Below are positions 7,153 through 15,135 of a stretch of DNA of 64,000 nucleotides, one piece after another. The stretch is from assembly GCA_029262895.1 (NCBI GenBank), contig JAJCYM010000029.1, positions 1 through 64,000 of the forward strand, given 5' to 3'. A program made the position numbers and the translations under genes. The notes beneath the pieces are model-generated. The model had not been told where the DNA came from and did not search any database. It saw nothing but the letters and a program-made list of their open reading frames with translations. Each line of letters begins with the position of its first letter. Within the stretch, counting starts at the first letter, position 1. The DNA is from Roseivirga sp. GTDB taxonomy: Bacteria > Bacteroidota > Bacteroidia > Cytophagales > Cyclobacteriaceae.

Positions 7153-8052
7153 ATGATAAATAAAACGAGCCTGCCTCTAATAAGCAACTTGACAAGACAT
7201 ATACTCACCATCACATTTGGCATCTGCCTTTTTCTTACCCAATCTCTTAACGGACAGGAATCCAATGAGGCTTCACTACTTTGGAAAGTTGAAGGCCCCG
7301 ATATCAAAACGTCTTACGTCTACGGTACTTTCCATTTGCTTCCTCAAGCGGACTTTGAATTGAAAGAAAAAGTAAAGAAGGCCTTTGAATCTTCCGAAGA
7401 GCTGGTACTGGAGCTGGATATGGATGATCCAGCCATGCAGTTGGAAGTATTGAAATATGCGAACATGAAAGATGGCGGCACTTTGGATAAGCTTTTATCT
7501 GAAGAGAATTTTCAGAAACTTGACTCGGCAATGAAAGAGGTCATGGGTGTTGGAGTTCGGTTAATGAATAGCTTTAAACCATTTGTGATCACCTCAGTAA
7601 TCACAGCAAGCTTTATCGATGGCACACCCGCGAGTTTTGAAGGTACATTTGTTGAGATGGCCCAGAAAAGAGAAATGGAGGTGCTTGGCCTTGAAACGGT
7701 TCAACAGCAAATGGATGTTTTCGATCGCATTCCTTACGAAAGTCAAGCTGAAGAGCTGATGGAGTTAATCAATGATCCCAACGATGCAAGATCACAGTTC
7801 TCTCAAATGCTCGATATGTACTATTCGGAGGACATCGATAGAATGTATCGGGTAACCAGTGAGTATATGGACGATGATAATGAGGTGGATGTATTACTCA
7901 ATGAGCGCAACAAGAACTGGATTCCTTTAATTGGAAAAATGGCCAAAGAGAAATCACTATTTATTGGCGTTGGGGCAGGGCACCTCGGTGGGCCGGAGGG
8001 TGTCGTGAATCTGCTGAAGAAGGCAGGTTACAAATTGACACCAATCCACTAA
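7153..8052 (+). CDS. TraB/GumN family protein (exported)
   Basis: 299 aa. A signal peptide (to about NGQ, residue 34) is followed by the TraB/GumN fold: LLWKVEGPDIKTSYVYGTFH with the family GTxH at 58-61, an acidic LVLELDMDDP, and the C-terminal GVGAGHLGG with His277, then a closing GYKLTPI. The two conserved GxxH motifs are thought to form a metal-dependent hydrolase or peptidase site (family proposal, not proven). It stands alone between the S41 gene and the ilv region. The frame starts with a clear signal sequence, so the start is likely right. Confidence 0.88.
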   Translation: MINKTSLPLISNLTRHILTITFGICLFLTQSLNGQESNEASLLWKVEGPDIKTSYVYGTFHLLPQADFELKEKVKKAFESSEELVLELDMDDPAMQLEVLKYANMKDGGTLDKLLSEENFQKLDSAMKEVMGVGVRLMNSFKPFVITSVITASFIDGTPASFEGTFVEMAQKREMEVLGLETVQQQMDVFDRIPYESQAEELMELINDPNDARSQFSQMLDMYYSEDIDRMYRVTSEYMDDDNEVDVLLNERNKNWIPLIGKMAKEKSLFIGVGAGHLGGPEGVVNLLKKAGYKLTPIH

Positions 8053-8083
8053 TTTTTCCAAAAATGAATCTCTCCTTTTTTAT

Positions 8084-8123
8084 CCCTCCTTTAAGGAGGG
8101 TGTCCGAAAGGCGGGAGGTGTCC
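8084..8123. repeat. Repeat A, copy 1
   Basis: A CCTCCTTTAAGGAGG palindrome followed by GTGTCCGAAAGGCGGGAGG. Copies 2 and 3 lie near 8279 and 37944. The element looks like a small dispersed Bacteroidota intergenic repeat that folds into a hairpin. Confidence 0.7.
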
Positions 8124-8133
8124 TAAAATTCAG

Positions 8134-8157
8134 GGCCTTCTCGTTTCCGGGAAGGCC
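8134..8157 (+). terminator. Hairpin after the TraB/GumN gene
   Basis: GGCCTTC and GAAGGCC arms with a 10-nt loop, followed by TTCTTCGTTT. It is a possible weak terminator of the upstream gene. Confidence 0.4.
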
Positions 8158-8164
8158 TTCTTCG

Positions 8165-8240
8165 TTTAGTGTTATTGCGAAGAAGCTGGAGCATGGCGGA
8201 AGGTGATGTGGCAATCCGCCTGTTCTAGATTGCTACTGTC
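8165..8240. repeat. Degraded dispersed intergenic element
   Basis: Starts TTATTGCGAAGAAGC and contains GGCAATCCGCC and TTCTAGATTGCTAC. This resembles the TCATTGCGAGGAACGAAGCAATCT type of short repeat scattered in many Bacteroidota genomes. The match is from memory of that family and the copy is imperfect. Confidence 0.4.
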
Positions 8241-8275
8241 CTGAACAGGCAAACCTGTCCGTCAGGACTTTTTTT
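8238..8275 (+). terminator. Strong terminator upstream of the ilv leader
   Basis: Nested stem GTCCTGA-ACAGG / CCTGT-(CCG)-TCAGGAC with a CAAA loop and seven Ts. It should stop read-through from the TraB/GumN side, so the ilv transcript needs its own start after this point. Confidence 0.75.
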
Positions 8276-8278
8276 ATT

Positions 8279-8316
8279 CCCTCCTTGAGGAGGGTGTCCG
8301 AAGGACGGGAGGTGTA
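8279..8316. repeat. Repeat A, copy 2
   Basis: CCCTCCTTGAGGAGGG, then GTGTCCGAAGGACGGGAGG. It is nearly identical to copy 1 and ends about 24 bp before the leader peptide start, so the ilv promoter must overlap it or lie in the short gap after it. Confidence 0.7.
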
Positions 8317-8339
8317 ATGGCCTCACATAGAGTATTTAA

Positions 8340-8393
8340 ATGAAACAGTTAACAGTCATTATTAGCGTCATTATTATTTCTCCCTCTGGGTGA
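8340..8393 (+). CDS. Branched-chain amino acid leader peptide
   Basis: A 17-codon frame, MKQLTVIISVIIISPSG, ending in TGA. Five Ile codons (all ATT, as a pair and a triplet), two Val and one Leu make 8 of 17 codons for the end products of the downstream ilv and leu genes. It starts after an A/T-rich stretch (TATTTAA) with no Shine-Dalgarno site, as is usual in this phylum. Its stop codon lies inside the first arm of the attenuator. This is the expected form of a ribosome-stalling control peptide, like E. coli ilvL. It is too short for normal gene finding. Confidence 0.82.
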   Translation: MKQLTVIISVIIISPSG

Positions 8394-8433
8394 GAGAAGC
8401 GCTGATATGTATCAAAAAAAGCCTTTCTCACCC
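8388..8433 (+). promoter_or_regulatory. Antiterminator pairing of the ilv attenuator
   Basis: GGGTGAGAGAAG (8388-8399) can pair with CTTTCTCACCC (8423-8433): eight continuous pairs, a one-base bulge, then three more. This pairing uses the same bases as the 5' arm of the terminator, so only one structure can form. Arm 1 begins at the last sense codon of the leader peptide. A ribosome stalled on the ATT triplet (8370-8378) would leave most of it free; one at the stop codon would mask it. Confidence 0.75.
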
Positions 8434-8452
8434 TGTGAGGAAGGCTTTTTTT
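8414..8452 (+). terminator. ilv attenuator terminator
   Basis: An 18-bp stem with one G-U pair and a three-base loop; GCCTTTCTCAC pairs with GTGAGGAAGGC, and the base of the stem is seven A-U pairs whose 3' side is the U-tract. No gene ends just before it apart from the leader peptide. That position, 150 bp before ilvD and on the same strand, fits an attenuator rather than an ordinary gene-end terminator. Confidence 0.85.
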
Positions 8453-8602
8453 ATGTTCAAAACAGAGTATTGAACAATGTAATTCAACAAACTATAAAGT
8501 GTTGATAAACAAATGAGTAGGACAGTAAAAAGCCTTTTGAAAAACGTAGGAACTTGAAAAAAAGATTAAACAATACTCAATAGCTCAAATAGGTTTGCAT
8601 CG

Positions 8603-10291
8603 ATGGATTCTGAAAGAATGGAATTGAACAAGTATAGCAAACGACTAACTCAGGACGAGACCCAACCCGCTTCTCAAGCGATGCTTTATGGTATTGGGTT
8701 GACAGAGGAAGATATGCAAAAAGCTCAGGTGGGTATAGTCAGTACCGGCTATGAGGGTAATACTTGCAATATGCACCTCAACGGCCTTGCCGATCAGGTA
8801 AAGGCAGGCGTTTGGAAGGAAGGCTTGGTTGGGTTGATCTATCATACCATTGGAGTCAGCGATGGTATTTCAAATGGTACCTCAGGAATGCGGTATTCTC
8901 TTGTCTCCAGAGAAATTATTGCAGACTCCATCGAAGCTGTGGCAGGTGCTCATTACTATGATGGTTTGGTCGCTGTTGTTGGCTGCGATAAGAATATGCC
9001 GGGAGCATTGATGGCAATGGGAAGGTTGAACAGGCCCTCCTTGATGGTTTATGGAGGAACGATAGCTTCCGGTTGCTACAAAGACAAAAAACTCAACATA
9101 GTTTCCTCATTTGAGGCTTTAGGTGAAAAGTTTGCCGGAACCATTTCGGATGAGGACTACAAAGGTATTATCAAGAACTCATGTCCGGGAGCAGGAGCAT
9201 GTGGAGGCATGTATACGGCCAATACCATGTCATCAGCCATCGAGGCATTGGGCATGTCATTGCCCTATAGTTCTTCAAATCCAGCAGTGGGAAAAGACAA
9301 AACCACCGAATGTGAAGAAGTGGGCAAGGCGATCAAACGTCTCCTGGAGCTTGATCTAAAGCCCAGGGACATTCTGACCAAAAAGTCGTTTGAGAATGCC
9401 ATTCGATTGATCACCGTCCTTGGTGGTTCAACGAATGCGGTGATGCACTTGATTGCAATAGCTCATAGTGTGGATATCGAACTTACACTTCATGATTTTC
9501 AAAAAATCAGCGATGAAATACCATTTCTGGCCGATTTAAAACCAAGTGGGAAATACCTTATGGAAGACCTGCATGAGGCTGGTGGAGTACCTGCTGTAAT
9601 GAAATTCATGTTGGAAAAAGGCATGCTCCATGGAGGTTGTATGACGGTAACAGGTTACACCCTAGCTGAAAACCTAAAAAGTGTAGAGGGGCTTAGTTCA
9701 GACCAACAAATTATCAAAGATTTAGACAAGCCTGTAAAGGAGACAGGCCACCTGCAAATGCTCTTTGGTAACCTGGCCGAGGAGGGAGCAGTGGCCAAAA
9801 TTACAGGCAAGGAAGGTGAGCGGTTTGAAGGAAAGGCGATTGTTTTCGAAGATGAATTTTCGGCAATTGAAGGAATTGGTAATGGGTCAGTGAAGGCCGG
9901 TCATGTCATTGTGATTCGTTATGAAGGTCCGAAGGGAGCACCGGGAATGCCGGAAATGCTCAAACCTACTTCGGCTATCATGGGAGCGGGCCTTGGTAAG
10001 TCCGTGGCCATGATCACAGACGGTAGATTTTCTGGTGGAAGTCATGGCTTTGTGGTAGGACATGTCACGCCCGAAGCCCAGGCTGGAGGGACAATTGCCT
10101 TAGTTGAAAATGGTGATCCGATTACAATTGACGCAATCCAAAATACTATTACGCTGGACATTCCAAAAGAAGAAATCGAATCGCGGAGATCGAAATGGGA
10201 AGCCCCACAGCTAAAGGTATCCAGAGGAGCTCTTTATAAATATGCCAAAACCGTGGAATCAGCCTCTAAAGGCTGTGTAACTGACTTTTAG
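8603..10291 (+). CDS. ilvD: Dihydroxy-acid dehydratase
   Basis: 562 aa, the family's usual length. It dehydrates 2,3-dihydroxy-isovalerate and -methylvalerate to the keto acids for Val/Leu and Ile. Iron-sulfur ligand cysteines are in place: Cys55 (GNTCNMH), Cys128 ([10 protein letters not shown]) and Cys200 ([10 protein letters not shown]). Three ligands suggest a cluster with an open site for substrate. The C-terminal [21 protein letters not shown] motif is standard. An ATG five codons in (MELNKYS) is an equally likely start. It is the first gene of ilvD-ilvB-ilvN-ilvC, behind the attenuator. Confidence 0.97.
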
Positions 10292-10301
10292 ATAGACTAA
10301 T

Positions 10302-12023
10302 ATGGAGGCACTACTAACACAACAAGTCGATCAAAATATTAAAACCACCGGAGCAGATGCCGTTTTGAGAGCATTGATTGCTGAAGAAACTTCTTTGATC
10401 TTCGGCTATCCGGGAGGTGCCATTATGCCTATTTACGATGCGCTTTATCATTATCAGGAAGAGGTGAGACATGTATTGACTCGCCATGAGCAGGGAGCAA
10501 TTCACGCTGCTCAGGGATACGCCCGTGCAACCGGTAAAGTTGGTGTGGTGATGGCGACTTCTGGGCCTGGTGCAACCAATCTCATTACTGGCATCGCAGA
10601 TGCCATGATCGATTCTACGCCCTTAGTTTGTATCACGGGTCAGGTAGGTTCAAACCTTTTAGGTTCGGATGCATTTCAGGAAACAGACATCATCAGTATT
10701 TCCATGCCTGTTACCAAATGGAACTATCAGGTAACAAAGGCCGAAGAATTACCTGAGGCATTGGCCAAGGCTTTCTATATCGCAAAGTCAGGACGACCGG
10801 GACCGGTATTGATAGATATTACCAAAGATGCTCAGTTTGGCAGCCTTGAATTTATCTATGAAAAATGTGAGGTCATACGGAGCTACAGACCAGTTCCTAA
10901 GTTGGAATTGGACCAACTATCAAAAGCAGCCGAGCTTATCAATGGTGCTCAAAGGCCATTCGTGCTATTTGGGCAGGGCGTAATTCTGGGCAATGCAGAG
11001 AAGGAATTCAAAATCTTTATAGAAAAAACCGGTATTCCGTCCGCATGGACGCTCTTGGGGCTTTCCGCCCTGCCAACAGATCATCCGCTTAATGTTGGAA
11101 TGTTGGGTATGCATGGAAACTACGGACCCAATAAACTTACCAATGAATGTGATGTTCTAATTGCCATCGGTATGCGATTCGATGACCGGGTGACCGGCAA
11201 TCTGGAAACCTATGCGAAACAAGCCAAAGTCATTCACTTCGACATCGATCCTGCCGAAATCAATAAGAATGTCAAAGCCGACATTGCGGTTTTGGGTGAC
11301 TGTAAGGAAGTTTTGGTCGAACTTACCCGATTGGCGAGGATGAACAGTCACCCGGTTTGGCGCGAACAATTCAGAGAGTTTACCAGAATTGAAGAAGAGC
11401 AAGTTGTAAAGAAAGAACTCCAGCCTTCCCAGGGCCAAATAACAATGGGAGAGGTGGTTAATGGAATTAATGATGAAACCAAAGGAGAAGCACTTTTGGT
11501 AACCGATGTTGGCCAGCACCAAATGGTGGCCTGCCGATATACAAAGTTCAATCAAAGCAAAAGCAGTATAACCTCAGGCGGCTTGGGAACAATGGGTTTC
11601 TGCCTGCCAGCTGCCCTGGGTGCAAAACTGGGAAATCCTGAAAGAGAGGTGATAGCAGTCATTGGAGATGGAGGCTTTCAAATGACTATACAGGAATTAG
11701 GAACCATATTTCAAACTCAGACCGCTGTGAAAATAGTCATCCTCAACAATTCCTTTTTGGGCATGGTGCGCCAATGGCAGCAGCTATTCTTTGATAAGAG
11801 ATACTCGAGCACAGAAATGGAAAACCCGGATTTTGTGACCATAGCCAAGGGGTATGGCATTGAAGGCAAATCTATTGATGATCGAACCGACCTTCAAAAT
11901 GCTATTCAAGAGATGCTTTCTCATGATGGAAGCTATTTGCTCGAAGTGCATGTAGGCAAGGAAGACAACGTTTTTCCAATGGTTCCAAGCGGAGCCTCAG
12001 TTTCAGAAGTGAGATTGTCTTAA
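10302..12023 (+). CDS. ilvB: Acetolactate synthase, large subunit
   Basis: 573 aa. ThDP- and FAD-dependent enzyme that condenses pyruvate with pyruvate or 2-ketobutyrate, the committed step to Val/Leu and Ile. The catalytic Glu63 is in RHEQGAIHAAQGYAR, and the ThDP motif begins GDGGFQMTIQELGT and ends with NN. The N-terminal region (GADAVLRALIAEE, FGYPGGAIMPIYDAL) and the MVRQWQQLFF segment are typical of acetohydroxyacid synthases rather than other ThDP enzymes. It starts 10 bp after ilvD and its stop directly abuts the ilvN start. Confidence 0.97.
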   Translation: MEALLTQQVDQNIKTTGADAVLRALIAEETSLIFGYPGGAIMPIYDALYHYQEEVRHVLTRHEQGAIHAAQGYARATGKVGVVMATSGPGATNLITGIADAMIDSTPLVCITGQVGSNLLGSDAFQETDIISISMPVTKWNYQVTKAEELPEALAKAFYIAKSGRPGPVLIDITKDAQFGSLEFIYEKCEVIRSYRPVPKLELDQLSKAAELINGAQRPFVLFGQGVILGNAEKEFKIFIEKTGIPSAWTLLGLSALPTDHPLNVGMLGMHGNYGPNKLTNECDVLIAIGMRFDDRVTGNLETYAKQAKVIHFDIDPAEINKNVKADIAVLGDCKEVLVELTRLARMNSHPVWREQFREFTRIEEEQVVKKELQPSQGQITMGEVVNGINDETKGEALLVTDVGQHQMVACRYTKFNQSKSSITSGGLGTMGFCLPAALGAKLGNPEREVIAVIGDGGFQMTIQELGTIFQTQTAVKIVILNNSFLGMVRQWQQLFFDKRYSSTEMENPDFVTIAKGYGIEGKSIDDRTDLQNAIQEMLSHDGSYLLEVHVGKEDNVFPMVPSGASVSEVRLS

Positions 12024-12548
12024 ATGGAAAAGTCATTTACCATATCGATTTTCACGGAAAATAGCATCGGTTTGCTCAACCGTATTACCTCCATGTTCAC
12101 CAGGCGGCATTTGAACATTGATAGCTTGAACACTTCGGAATCAGAGCTTGCTGGGGTTCATAGGTTTACCATAGTTGTCAAAACCACTGCCGAACAAGTC
12201 AAAAAACTTGTGCTGCAAATTGAGAAACAAGTGGAAGTTTTAAGAGCCGTCTACCATCAGGACGATGAAACGGTTTTCCAGGAAATAGCACTGTATAAGG
12301 TCTCCACCAAATCAGTTGCTGACGGGAACCTGGTGGAAAAGCTCATTCGGGATAATCACGCCAGAATATTATCAATGGAACAAGATTTCATGATCATTGA
12401 GAAGACCGGTCATAAAGAGGAAACACAAGAACTACTCGAATTTTTAAAGCCCTATGGGCTGATCGAGTTTGTCCGATCAGGACGCGTATCGGTAATGAAG
12501 CCGATGGAAGAATCAAATGAATTAAGAAAACGAATATCAAACTTTTAA
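12024..12548 (+). CDS. ilvN: Acetolactate synthase, regulatory small subunit
   Basis: 174 aa. An N-terminal ACT domain (ISIFTENSIGLLNRITSMFTRRHLNIDSL) is followed by the C-terminal small-subunit domain. It binds valine and sets feedback inhibition of the large subunit (family knowledge). The ATG follows the ilvB TAA with no gap, so translation is probably coupled and gives matched subunit amounts. Named ilvN for its place beside ilvB; ilvH would be equally valid. Confidence 0.95.
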   Translation: MEKSFTISIFTENSIGLLNRITSMFTRRHLNIDSLNTSESELAGVHRFTIVVKTTAEQVKKLVLQIEKQVEVLRAVYHQDDETVFQEIALYKVSTKSVADGNLVEKLIRDNHARILSMEQDFMIIEKTGHKEETQELLEFLKPYGLIEFVRSGRVSVMKPMEESNELRKRISNF

Positions 12549-12558
12549 AATCAGAAAA

Positions 12559-13638
12559 ATGGCAAAAATTAATTTCGGAGGGGTAGAAGAAAACGTAGTT
12601 ACCCGGGATGAATTTCCATTATCAAAAGCACAAGAAGTGCTTCAAAACGAGACAGTTGCAGTGATTGGTTATGGCGTACAAGGCCCAGGACAATCACTTA
12701 ATTTGAAAGATAACGGCATTAATGTGATTGTTGGCCAGCGTCAGGAATCAAAAACCTGGGATAAGGCTATTGCCGATGGTTGGGAGCCTGGGGTCACTTT
12801 ATTCCCGATTGAACAAGCTTTGGAAAGGGCCTCCATCATTTGTTATCTCTTGTCAGATGCAGCCCAAATTCAACTATGGCCAACGGTCGAAAAACACCTG
12901 ACTCCTGGTAAAATGCTTTATTTCTCCCATGGATTTGGTGTAGCCTATTCTGAGAAAACGGGAATTGTTCCTCCATCGGATGTTGACGTTGCCTTAGTAG
13001 CTCCAAAGGGATCAGGCACCTCACTTCGAAGCCTATTTGTGGAAGGTAAAGGATTGAACTCCTCCTTCGCAATTCATCAGGATGCTACCGGATCAGCAAG
13101 AGATCGAGTAGTGGCGTTGGGAATAGCAGTAGGGTCAGGATATCTATTTGAGACTGATTTTTATAAGGAAGTAACCTCAGATCTTACAGGAGAAAGAGGA
13201 ACATTGATGGGTGCTATTCAAGGCCTGTTTCAAGCGCAATATGAAGTGTTGAGAGCTAACGGACATTCACCATCTGAAGCTTTTAACGAAACTGTGGAGG
13301 AGGCTACCCAATCGCTTTACCCGCTTATCGCAGATAATGGAATGGATTGGATGTATGCCAATTGCTCTACCACTGCGCAACGAGGTGCTCTGGATTGGAA
13401 AGACAAGTTCTATGAAGCCACAAAGCCTGTCTTCGAGCAATTATACCAATCCGTAACGGATGGAATTGAGGCGCAGAATTCAATCAATTCGAATTCACAA
13501 GCTGACTATCGGGAAAAACTCCAGGTAGAATTGGATGCACTTCATAATTCAGAAATGTGGAGAGCGGGAAAGGCAGTAAGGGCATTAAGACCTGAAAATG
13601 CACCAACAGTGGAGAAAGAAGAACCAATATTGGTCTAG
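12559..13638 (+). CDS. ilvC: Ketol-acid reductoisomerase
   Basis: 359 aa. It isomerises and reduces acetolactate or acetohydroxybutyrate with NADPH and Mg2+. The Rossmann motif is GYGVQGPGQSLNLKDNG rather than the common GYGSQGHA; the SQGH-to-VQGP variant is usual in Bacteroidota. VALVAPKGSGTSLR and the helical C-terminal domain (ETVEEATQSLYPLIADNGMDWMYANCSTTAQRGA) are recognisable. The length lies between the common class I (about 330) and class II (about 490) forms. It starts 10 bp after ilvN and ends the first ilv block. Confidence 0.95.
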   Translation: MAKINFGGVEENVVTRDEFPLSKAQEVLQNETVAVIGYGVQGPGQSLNLKDNGINVIVGQRQESKTWDKAIADGWEPGVTLFPIEQALERASIICYLLSDAAQIQLWPTVEKHLTPGKMLYFSHGFGVAYSEKTGIVPPSDVDVALVAPKGSGTSLRSLFVEGKGLNSSFAIHQDATGSARDRVVALGIAVGSGYLFETDFYKEVTSDLTGERGTLMGAIQGLFQAQYEVLRANGHSPSEAFNETVEEATQSLYPLIADNGMDWMYANCSTTAQRGALDWKDKFYEATKPVFEQLYQSVTDGIEAQNSINSNSQADYREKLQVELDALHNSEMWRAGKAVRALRPENAPTVEKEEPILV

Positions 13639-13875: not shown

Positions 13876-15135
13876 ATGCAAACAACGACCTATATACCGG
13901 ACTTAAAGGATATTGAGACTGCTGCGGAGTGTCTCGAAGGCGTGGCGGTGCACACCCCCTTAACGCCCAACCTGACCTTTTCAGAGAAGTATAAGGCAAA
14001 TGTACTTTTCAAAAGAGAGGATCTTCAGGTCGTTCGATCTTATAAAATCCGAGGAGCTTATAATAAGATTAGCCACCTTTCTGAGGACGAAATGCAGAAA
14101 GGTGTGATCTGTGCAAGTGCGGGGAATCATGCACAGGGAGTTGCCTATTCCTGTCAATTACTGGGTGTGAAGGCCACCATTTTTATGCCTGCACCTACAC
14201 CCAAACAAAAAGTGGAACAGGTTCGATTTTTCGGGAAGGAATTCGTTGAAATCGTATTGATCGGAGACACCTTTGATGATGCCTATGAATTGGCAAAAGA
14301 ATTTTCAATTAAAACAGGAAGTGAATTTATACATCCTTTTGATAATGAGAAAATTATAGAAGGACAAGGCACAGTAGGGTTAGAGCTTCTAAAGGACTCA
14401 AATAGCCAGATTGATTTCCTGATTCTTCCCATTGGAGGTGGCGGACTGGCCGCAGGAGTATCCAGTGTTATTAAGCAACTGAGTCCTGAGACAAGGATAA
14501 TTGGAGTTGAGCCTGAAGGTGCTCCTTCCATGAAAGATTCTCTTGAGGCAGGGCATAGAATTACCCTAGATACCATTGACAAGTTTGTTGATGGTGCAGC
14601 TGTCAAATCAGTAGGAGATAAGACCTTTGACATTGTTAGGGAGAATCTAGAGAAGGTGATTACCGTTCCTGAGGGCCTTGTATGCTCCACCATGCTGGAA
14701 CTCTACGAGAGGGATGCGATCGTGCTTGAACCTGCCGGAACTTTGAGTATAGCGGCTTTAGAGCAACTCAAAGAAGAGATCACAGGAAAAACCGTGGTTT
14801 GCCTGCTTTCAGGTAATAATAATGACATCTCCAGAACAGAGGAGATCAGGGAGCGTGCGCTGTTATATCAAGGGCTCAAACATTACTTCCTGGTTCAATT
14901 TCCTCAACGTGCCGGGGCTTTGAAAGAATTTTTGGTTGAAGTATTAGGTCCAGACGATGATATCGTACTCTTTGAGTACACTAAAAAAACAGCCAAAGAG
15001 AAGGGGCCCGCATTGATTGGTATTGAATTAAAATCCAAAGCAGATTTTAGGCCTCTAGTGGCGAGAATGGAAGTCCTGAAAATTCAGATAGAGTATTTGA
15101 ATCAAAAACCAGAAATACTTCAGTATTACATCTGA
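13876..15135 (+). CDS. ilvA: Threonine ammonia-lyase (threonine dehydratase)
   Basis: 419 aa. PLP enzyme making 2-ketobutyrate for isoleucine. Lys57 in RSYKIRGAYNK is the Schiff-base lysine, and GGGGLAAGVSS binds the PLP phosphate. FMPAPTPKQKVEQVRFFG is characteristic of the short biosynthetic form. The C-terminal ACT-like region (about 335-419, HYFLVQFPQRAGALKEFL) is single, unlike the double one in E. coli IlvA. It is 237 bp after ilvC, with repeats between them, so it may be on a separate transcript. Confidence 0.95.
   Translation: MQTTTYIPDLKDIETAAECLEGVAVHTPLTPNLTFSEKYKANVLFKREDLQVVRSYKIRGAYNKISHLSEDEMQKGVICASAGNHAQGVAYSCQLLGVKATIFMPAPTPKQKVEQVRFFGKEFVEIVLIGDTFDDAYELAKEFSIKTGSEFIHPFDNEKIIEGQGTVGLELLKDSNSQIDFLILPIGGGGLAAGVSSVIKQLSPETRIIGVEPEGAPSMKDSLEAGHRITLDTIDKFVDGAAVKSVGDKTFDIVRENLEKVITVPEGLVCSTMLELYERDAIVLEPAGTLSIAALEQLKEEITGKTVVCLLSGNNNDISRTEEIRERALLYQGLKHYFLVQFPQRAGALKEFLVEVLGPDDDIVLFEYTKKTAKEKGPALIGIELKSKADFRPLVARMEVLKIQIEYLNQKPEILQYYI

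Follow-up and report, generated by a model that had tools for sequence, protein, structure and literature searches.

A probable ribosome-mediated transcription attenuator preceding the ilv operon of a Roseivirga species and of many other Bacteroidota

The ilv operon in a 64,000-nucleotide stretch of Roseivirga sp. DNA (the window) is preceded by a short leader that, judged from its sequence, can be assigned with high confidence to the ribosome-mediated transcription attenuators. The leader very probably turns the operon on when isoleucine, valine, or leucine runs short, a reading that we prefer because many relatives have a leader of this design in front of their own ilv operon. A first-pass annotation of the window had proposed this kind of control, and the proposal is supported by leaders rich in branched-chain amino acids (BCAA) with terminators before the ilv operon of relatives and by conserved alternative pairing. 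Seen directly in the DNA are the open reading frame, two mutually exclusive hairpins, a stop codon within an antiterminator arm, conservation, covariation, and the downstream genes. The defining features of ribosome-mediated attenuators that a sequence can test are all present, the ribosome geometry only in part. The finding suggests a specific, testable mode of control for Ile, Val, and Leu synthesis in Bacteroidota.

Leader, hairpins, and operon in the window

The leader ORF lies within 550 nt 5' of ilvD (Table 1). The first-pass annotation had described a BCAA-rich peptide of 17 codons with an ATT pair and an ATT triplet, and the letters agree: Ile, Val, and Leu make up 8/17 residues (5 I, 2 V, 1 L), with ATT ATT at 8358-8363 and ATT ATT ATT at 8370-8378. 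The codons enriched in this short ORF are those of the products of the pathway, and a BCAA biosynthetic operon lies downstream. The genes were named by NCBIfam models; leuA lies further along in the window. The operon begins with ilvD, 150 nt past the U-tract, as had been annotated.

Table 1. Features of the ilv leader region and operon (window coordinates)
Feature	Positions	Strand	Basis
Terminator-like hairpin with T7, 5' of the leader	8238..8275	+	-16.7 kcal/mol, z -4.9
Leader ORF, 17 codons plus TGA, MKQLTVIISVIIISPSG	8340..8393	+	letter-by-letter check
Presumed control codons GTC ATT ATT AGC GTC ATT ATT ATT (V I I S V I I I)	8355..8378	+	sequence; similar codon preference in relatives
Possible protector arm, pairs with arm 1 in the full-length fold	8378..8386	+	fold
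Arm 1, GGGTGAGAGAAG, antiterminator 5' arm, holds the stop codon	8388..8399	+	folds, pairing across units, alignment A1
Intrinsic terminator; 5' A-tract 8414-8420, U-tract 8446-8452	8414..8452	+	folds
Arm 2, CTTTCTCACCC, antiterminator 3' arm and terminator 5' arm	8423..8433	+	folds, pairing across units, alignment A1
Arm 3, 3' arm of the terminator core	8435..8445	+	fold, terminator covariation in A1
ilvD, first structural gene	8603..10291	+	TIGR00110
ilvB	10302..12023	+	TIGR00118
ilvN (small subunit)	12024..12548	+	TIGR00119
ilvC	12559..13638	+	TIGR00465
ilvA, possibly same transcription unit	13876..15135	+	TIGR02079

An intrinsic terminator stands between the leader and the first structural gene. 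It had been annotated as an 18-bp hairpin followed by a 7-nt U-tract; the 18 pairs do fold (-22.9 kcal/mol), but the tract is not separate from them, as seven A-U pairs use those same U residues. The 11-pair core (8421-8445) has a folding energy of -15.9 kcal/mol and the antiterminator (8388-8433) one of -17.8 kcal/mol. The earlier claims on the topology were borne out as well: the TGA at 8391-8393 falls inside arm 1, and arm 2 both pairs with arm 1 and forms the 5' side of the terminator, so that the two hairpins, having arm 2 in common, exclude each other. Folding of 8340-8460 gave a z score of -5.3, equalled by none of 200 shuffles, and folding of 8380-8436 a z score of -3.5, equalled by 2 of 200. 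When the RNA was ended at 8436, before arm 3 is made, the fold of 8340-8436 had arms 1 and 2 paired (-19.4). The RNA that a ribosome at the stop codon would leave free (8404-8452) formed the terminator (-23.2). For the complete segment 8388-8452 the terminator was preferred at equilibrium (-24.8), and antitermination would therefore have to win by forming first. A simple consensus scan for terminators missed this one, which its rules for loop and tail exclude, and also missed the hairpin upstream of the leader.

From these features we infer translation of the leader, ribosome stalling, termination, and amino acid dependence in the following way. RNA polymerase would transcribe the leader while a ribosome translates it. 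A shortage of charged tRNA for Ile, Val, or Leu would stall the ribosome within V-I-I-S-V-I-I-I. When its A site holds the last Ile codon (8376), its front edge would lie near 8388 and arm 1 would be free to pair with arm 2 once the latter is made, which would block the terminator and permit transcription of ilvDBNC. A ribosome that reaches the stop codon would cover arm 1, and the terminator could fold. By the geometry of the window, the first position leaves 11 of the 12 arm 1 bases free and the second leaves none.

The terminator-like hairpin at 8238-8275 occupies the place where relatives with two units in series carry the terminator of the first unit, and no BCAA-rich leader precedes it. 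The promoter consensus of Bacteroidetes is TTG-N18-22-TAnnTTTG. With one mismatch allowed, no such promoter was recognized in 7901-8345; among relatives of the same family, 44 of 73 units have one within 120 nt, a raw count not set against chance. Two arrangements would account for this: an atypical promoter downstream of 8275 and ahead of the leader, or transcription that runs through the hairpin. Tentatively, the window may once have had a first unit that decayed and left the hairpin beside dispersed repeats.

Repeats of two kinds were noted in this DNA. The segment 8160-8250 is a dispersed repeat with 12 matches in its own genome including itself, the others being 81-92% identical and six of them lying on contig C64. 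In addition, two near-identical copies of a repeat GGAGGGTGTCCGAA-GNCGGGAGGTG (8095-8120 and 8289-8314) flank the intergenic space, the second ending 25 nt 5' of the leader; a repeat search found no further copies in the window's genome.

Occurrence and pairing in relatives

A detector was applied that accepts an ATG ORF of 9-48 codons with at least 6 I, L, or V in 9 codons, followed 13-55 nt past the stop by the start of a terminator of -10 kcal/mol or lower. On both strands of the 64-kb window it reported only the site at 8340-8452. Shuffled upstream DNA gave 1 match in 338,391 nt. Intergenic terminators are common, and other terminator-like hairpins occur in the upstream space, so an ordinary terminator next to an ORF that is hydrophobic by chance has to be considered. 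We regard this explanation as very improbable. The combination of ORF and terminator was found once in 948,325 nt of control DNA (for 80 named loci, the downstream DNA read on both strands and the upstream DNA read on the opposite strand) but 121 times in 239,743 nt of real DNA upstream of ilvD from 190 loci, the latter counted raw, with duplicates included and before cleaning by eye. Moreover, a plain terminator gives no role to arm 1 over the stop codon or to its covariation with arm 2.

The leader peptide and the alternative pairing were both checked in relatives, and both are conserved. In the family of the window, an IlvD match was present in 136 of 148 genomes, and upstream DNA was examined at 110 places in 109 of these 136. 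At least one unit of leader and terminator was found at 94 of the 110 loci (92 plus L063 and L101, earlier set aside as duplicates). Four of the 16 loci without a unit are truncated by contig ends (L011, L013, L036, and L045), and another, L088, is a second IlvD copy for which 1 kb was examined. Once duplicates had been removed, accepted units, a few of which are doubtful, remained at 48 of 80 named Bacteroidota loci; the carriers include Flavobacterium, Chryseobacterium, Tenacibaculum, Lutibacter, Chitinophaga, and Pedobacter. The family rows L020 and L017 are identical to those of the named records L127 (a Cyclobacteriaceae bacterium) and L129 (Chryseolinea lacunae), respectively, in keeping with Cyclobacteriaceae as the window's family. 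A phylum-wide sample gave convincing units, accepted by eye, at 8 of 48 loci (L264, L280-L284, L286, and L301), six of these among the 7 loci of one family, and none at the other 40. Matches in L274, L278, L287, L288, and L298 of that sample were rejected by eye. For L224-L303 and for the search for tandem units, thresholds were looser than in the first set (at least 5 I, L, or V in 9 and a terminator of -9). The unit is thus widespread in Bacteroidota and not universal.

The leaders of family f21 (L280-L284 and L286) have a different, shared C-terminal half, e.g. LVIIQIIGIPYRPGKAL, whose similarity from locus to locus is unusual for a leader peptide.

In many relatives the unit lies about 1.0-1.4 kb further upstream of ilvD. 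The intervening gene was sought in seven such loci; the script returned a tiny ORF for two of them (L003 and L141), and in all five others, which were tested, the gene is ilvE. Because the intervening gene is ilvE, the unit keeps its place before the first gene of the operon.

The automatic procedure accepted 133 units. Five were dropped by eye (one each at L132, L148, L157, L161, and L166). The remaining 128, which come from 115 loci and could serve as the starting set for a new RNA family, still contain a few doubtful ones, e.g. the units of L170 and L172 and, at L027, the second unit. Over the 133 units, the duplex of arm 1 and arm 2 had a mean energy of -14.8 kcal/mol, compared with -8.1 for dinucleotide-shuffled leaders and -9.1 when arm 2 was taken from other units. 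The pairing beat 95% of the unit's own 50 shuffles in 101 of the 133 units and failed to do so in 32; several Flavobacterium units pair weakly (-6.3 to -9.9).

Compensatory changes support an antiterminator that excludes the terminator. Alignment A1 comprises 18 of 26 units, and because these were preselected by an arm 1 motif, its conservation is favored by the choice. In A1, 89.6% of the antiterminator cells are paired, against 41-58% in slid versions, and 6 of 10 pairs are changed on both sides, which was reached by 2 of 500 shuffles. The A1 terminator has 95.1% of cells paired and 8 of 15 pairs changed on both sides (0 of 500 shuffles). Alignment A2, which contains all 19 deduplicated units of L091-L110, has 95.9% of the antiterminator and 99.5% of the terminator cells paired, with one pair per helix changed on both sides (reached by 465 and 441 of 500 shuffles, respectively). 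These two pairs share a single arm 2 position, whose changes are matched by arm 1 in 6 rows and by arm 3 in 5, which is what the attenuator model requires.

The position of the ribosome was evaluated with an assumed footprint of -15 to +12 at the stop codon. Arm 1 overlaps this footprint by at least 5 nt in 128/128 units, a result that is partly built in because the search for arm 1 was confined to the stretch that starts 24 nt before the stop and ends at the terminator. The stop codon lies inside arm 1 or within 3 nt of it in 104 of the 128. From the last control codon to arm 1 the median distance is 11 nt, with at least 9 nt in 103 and at least 12 nt in 62 of the 128 units; given such short gaps, arm 1 may stay covered in some units when the ribosome stalls at the final control codon. 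A test for a conserved protector arm before arm 1 across the 128 units, which misses the known arms of trpL, did not demonstrate one (16 units at p ≤ 0.05; mean -8.2 versus -7.6 for shuffled sequences).

With the stop codon inside arm 1, release of the ribosome would matter, and some leaders have Pro near their end. Both points would suit an arrest like that of TnaC, in which the nascent peptide, instead of tRNA scarcity, stalls the ribosome at the stop codon. Such an arrest is, like the plain terminator, very improbable here: no C-terminal residues are common across units, the conserved feature being the BCAA run, and the stop codons vary (77 TGA, 29 TAA, and 22 TAG).

Codon usage of the leaders

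In the 128 units the leaders consist of 24% Ile, 16% Val, and 10% Leu, compared with 7, 7, and 8.5% in ilvD. By these codon counts the leader would sense mainly Ile and Val, then Leu. Valine is encoded by GTC in 47% of the leader codons versus 9% in the ilvD DNA of the same loci, and GTC makes up 13% of the Val codons in all frames of the 120 nt upstream. Of 81 comparable units, 74 have a raised share of GTC in the leader and 7 a reduced one. For isoleucine, ATT accounts for 70% of the leader codons versus 50% in ilvD DNA. Among the 30 loci scanned of 39 tRNA matches in the window's genome, tRNA-Val occurs twice, once with anticodon GAC and once with TAC. GTC is decoded only by the tRNA-Val with anticodon GAC. 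The bias of leader Val codons to the rare GTC looks new as an addition to what is known of such leaders.

Theory predicts that attenuators use the codons whose tRNA is the first to lose its charge (PMC1183508). This theory may apply to the GTC bias of the leaders, which in turn would offer a natural test of it.

Leader peptides are short and hydrophobic, as a small functional (membrane) peptide might be, with the RNA structure secondary. We consider this even less probable than the two explanations above, as sequence and length vary widely (9-48 codons were allowed) while BCAA content and the arms persist, and as the GTC and ATT preferences of the leaders differ from those of ilvD. Equally remote is direct sensing of BCAA or tRNA by a riboswitch, T-box, or protein-binding RNA: these also use exclusive hairpins, but over the whole window no Rfam family, T-box and riboswitch families included, reached its gathering score, and the best full-length matches below threshold, Thr_leader (RF00506; 23.8 bits, cut-off 55, E 0.028) and Phe_leader (RF01859; 21.4 bits, cut-off 55, E 0.32), are themselves leader-peptide attenuators. 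They were among 28 subthreshold matches, mostly of unrelated kinds, in a permissive Rfam search of 8200-8650.

Known attenuators, tandem units, and other leaders

The ribosome-mediated attenuator proposed for the window was compared with known systems. The ilvGMEDA (ilvL) and ilvBN (ivbL) operons of E. coli likewise have a BCAA-rich leader ORF, a terminator soon past its stop, and an arm that pairs with the 5' side of the terminator. Their leader ORFs have 32 codons versus 17 in the window, their Val codons are mostly GTG whereas Bacteroidota leaders favor GTC, and the first structural gene in the window is ilvD. The arm-finding script placed arm 1 of ivbL on the stop codon, as in the window, and arm 1 of ilvL well before it. 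In four E. coli leaders used as a yardstick, the script set arm 1 before the stop in ilvL and leuL and chose the wrong arm in trpL; because of this error no difference in design from E. coli is claimed. The segment VISLVVISVVVIII of the ilvL peptide (L307) resembles the stretches IISLVIISV and ISLIIISVVV of Bacteroidota leaders (e.g. L012, L029, and L177), Ser and Leu positions included. Descent and convergence are indistinguishable in this case because of the low complexity.

Leader attenuators of ilvB in other phyla also combine a BCAA-rich leader ORF with a terminator and an antiterminator before an ilv gene, which is ilvB there and ilvD in the window. The ilvB-II antiterminator consists of the 3' shoulder of the terminator stem and the P1 loop, whereas in the window it is made of the 5' side of the terminator and the arm at the stop codon. 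The Bacteroid-trp RNA (RF01692), a trp leader attenuator, matches neither the window nor the genome that the window comes from. It is rated a cis-regulatory RNA of Bacteroidetes (PMC2864571). Our literature search found no description of ilv attenuation in Bacteroidota, although the 2010 survey of attenuation by Lopatovskaya et al. (PubMed 20198868), cited in PMC4833913 and PMC10272879, may list Bacteroidetes cases.

Two units in series were found at 18 distinct loci when 270 were scanned (L001-L190 and L224-L303) with the looser thresholds. One of these loci (L003) belongs to the window's own genus, L004 and L141 are further examples, and the pair at L027 is doubtful. The median spacing from the first terminator to the second leader is 19.5 nt. 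Both leaders are BCAA-rich, with means of 5.8 I, 3.3 V, and 0.9 L in the first and 5.6, 2.5, and 1.5 in the second. In 31 of 36 comparisons an arm 1 pairs better with the arm 2 of its own unit than with that of the other (means of -13.9 versus -8.1). A comparable arrangement is the mgtCBR leader of Salmonella, where two leader-ORF attenuators stand in series on one RNA and answer two different signals, ATP and proline (PMC3641672). In the tandem pairs described here both leaders are BCAA-rich, and the window itself has a single unit. Tandem BCAA units look like an addition to what is known, and if both units are functional the arrangement would be a new variant. Having two units for the same amino acids, it allows one to ask whether attenuators in series sharpen the response. 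Tentatively, and with more doubt than belief, the observations may be joined into one reading for many Bacteroidota: a ribosome at the stop codon would mask the antiterminator, valine would be sensed through the rare GTC and its one dedicated tRNA, and in some species two attenuators for the same amino acids in series, each of whose arms pair preferentially within their own unit, would provide two checkpoints and a steeper response.

Leaders for His and Trp are likely present elsewhere in the window's genome; they look new as well and suggest a wider use of attenuation in the clade. The sequence MRNYTSHNAWWWHVTELR precedes trpE (L305, contig C90); a terminator of -19.5 kcal/mol lies immediately 5' of the gene, and the script's arms 1 and 2 pair weakly (-6.7). 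A His-rich short ORF, MIELINTYYPGNAHHVHHFHHLS, precedes hisG (L304, contig C66) and is likely the leader of a His attenuator. The script found no terminator at this leader; on inspection by eye, CTGGC-GATAA-GCCAG and the TTTTT after it might form one.
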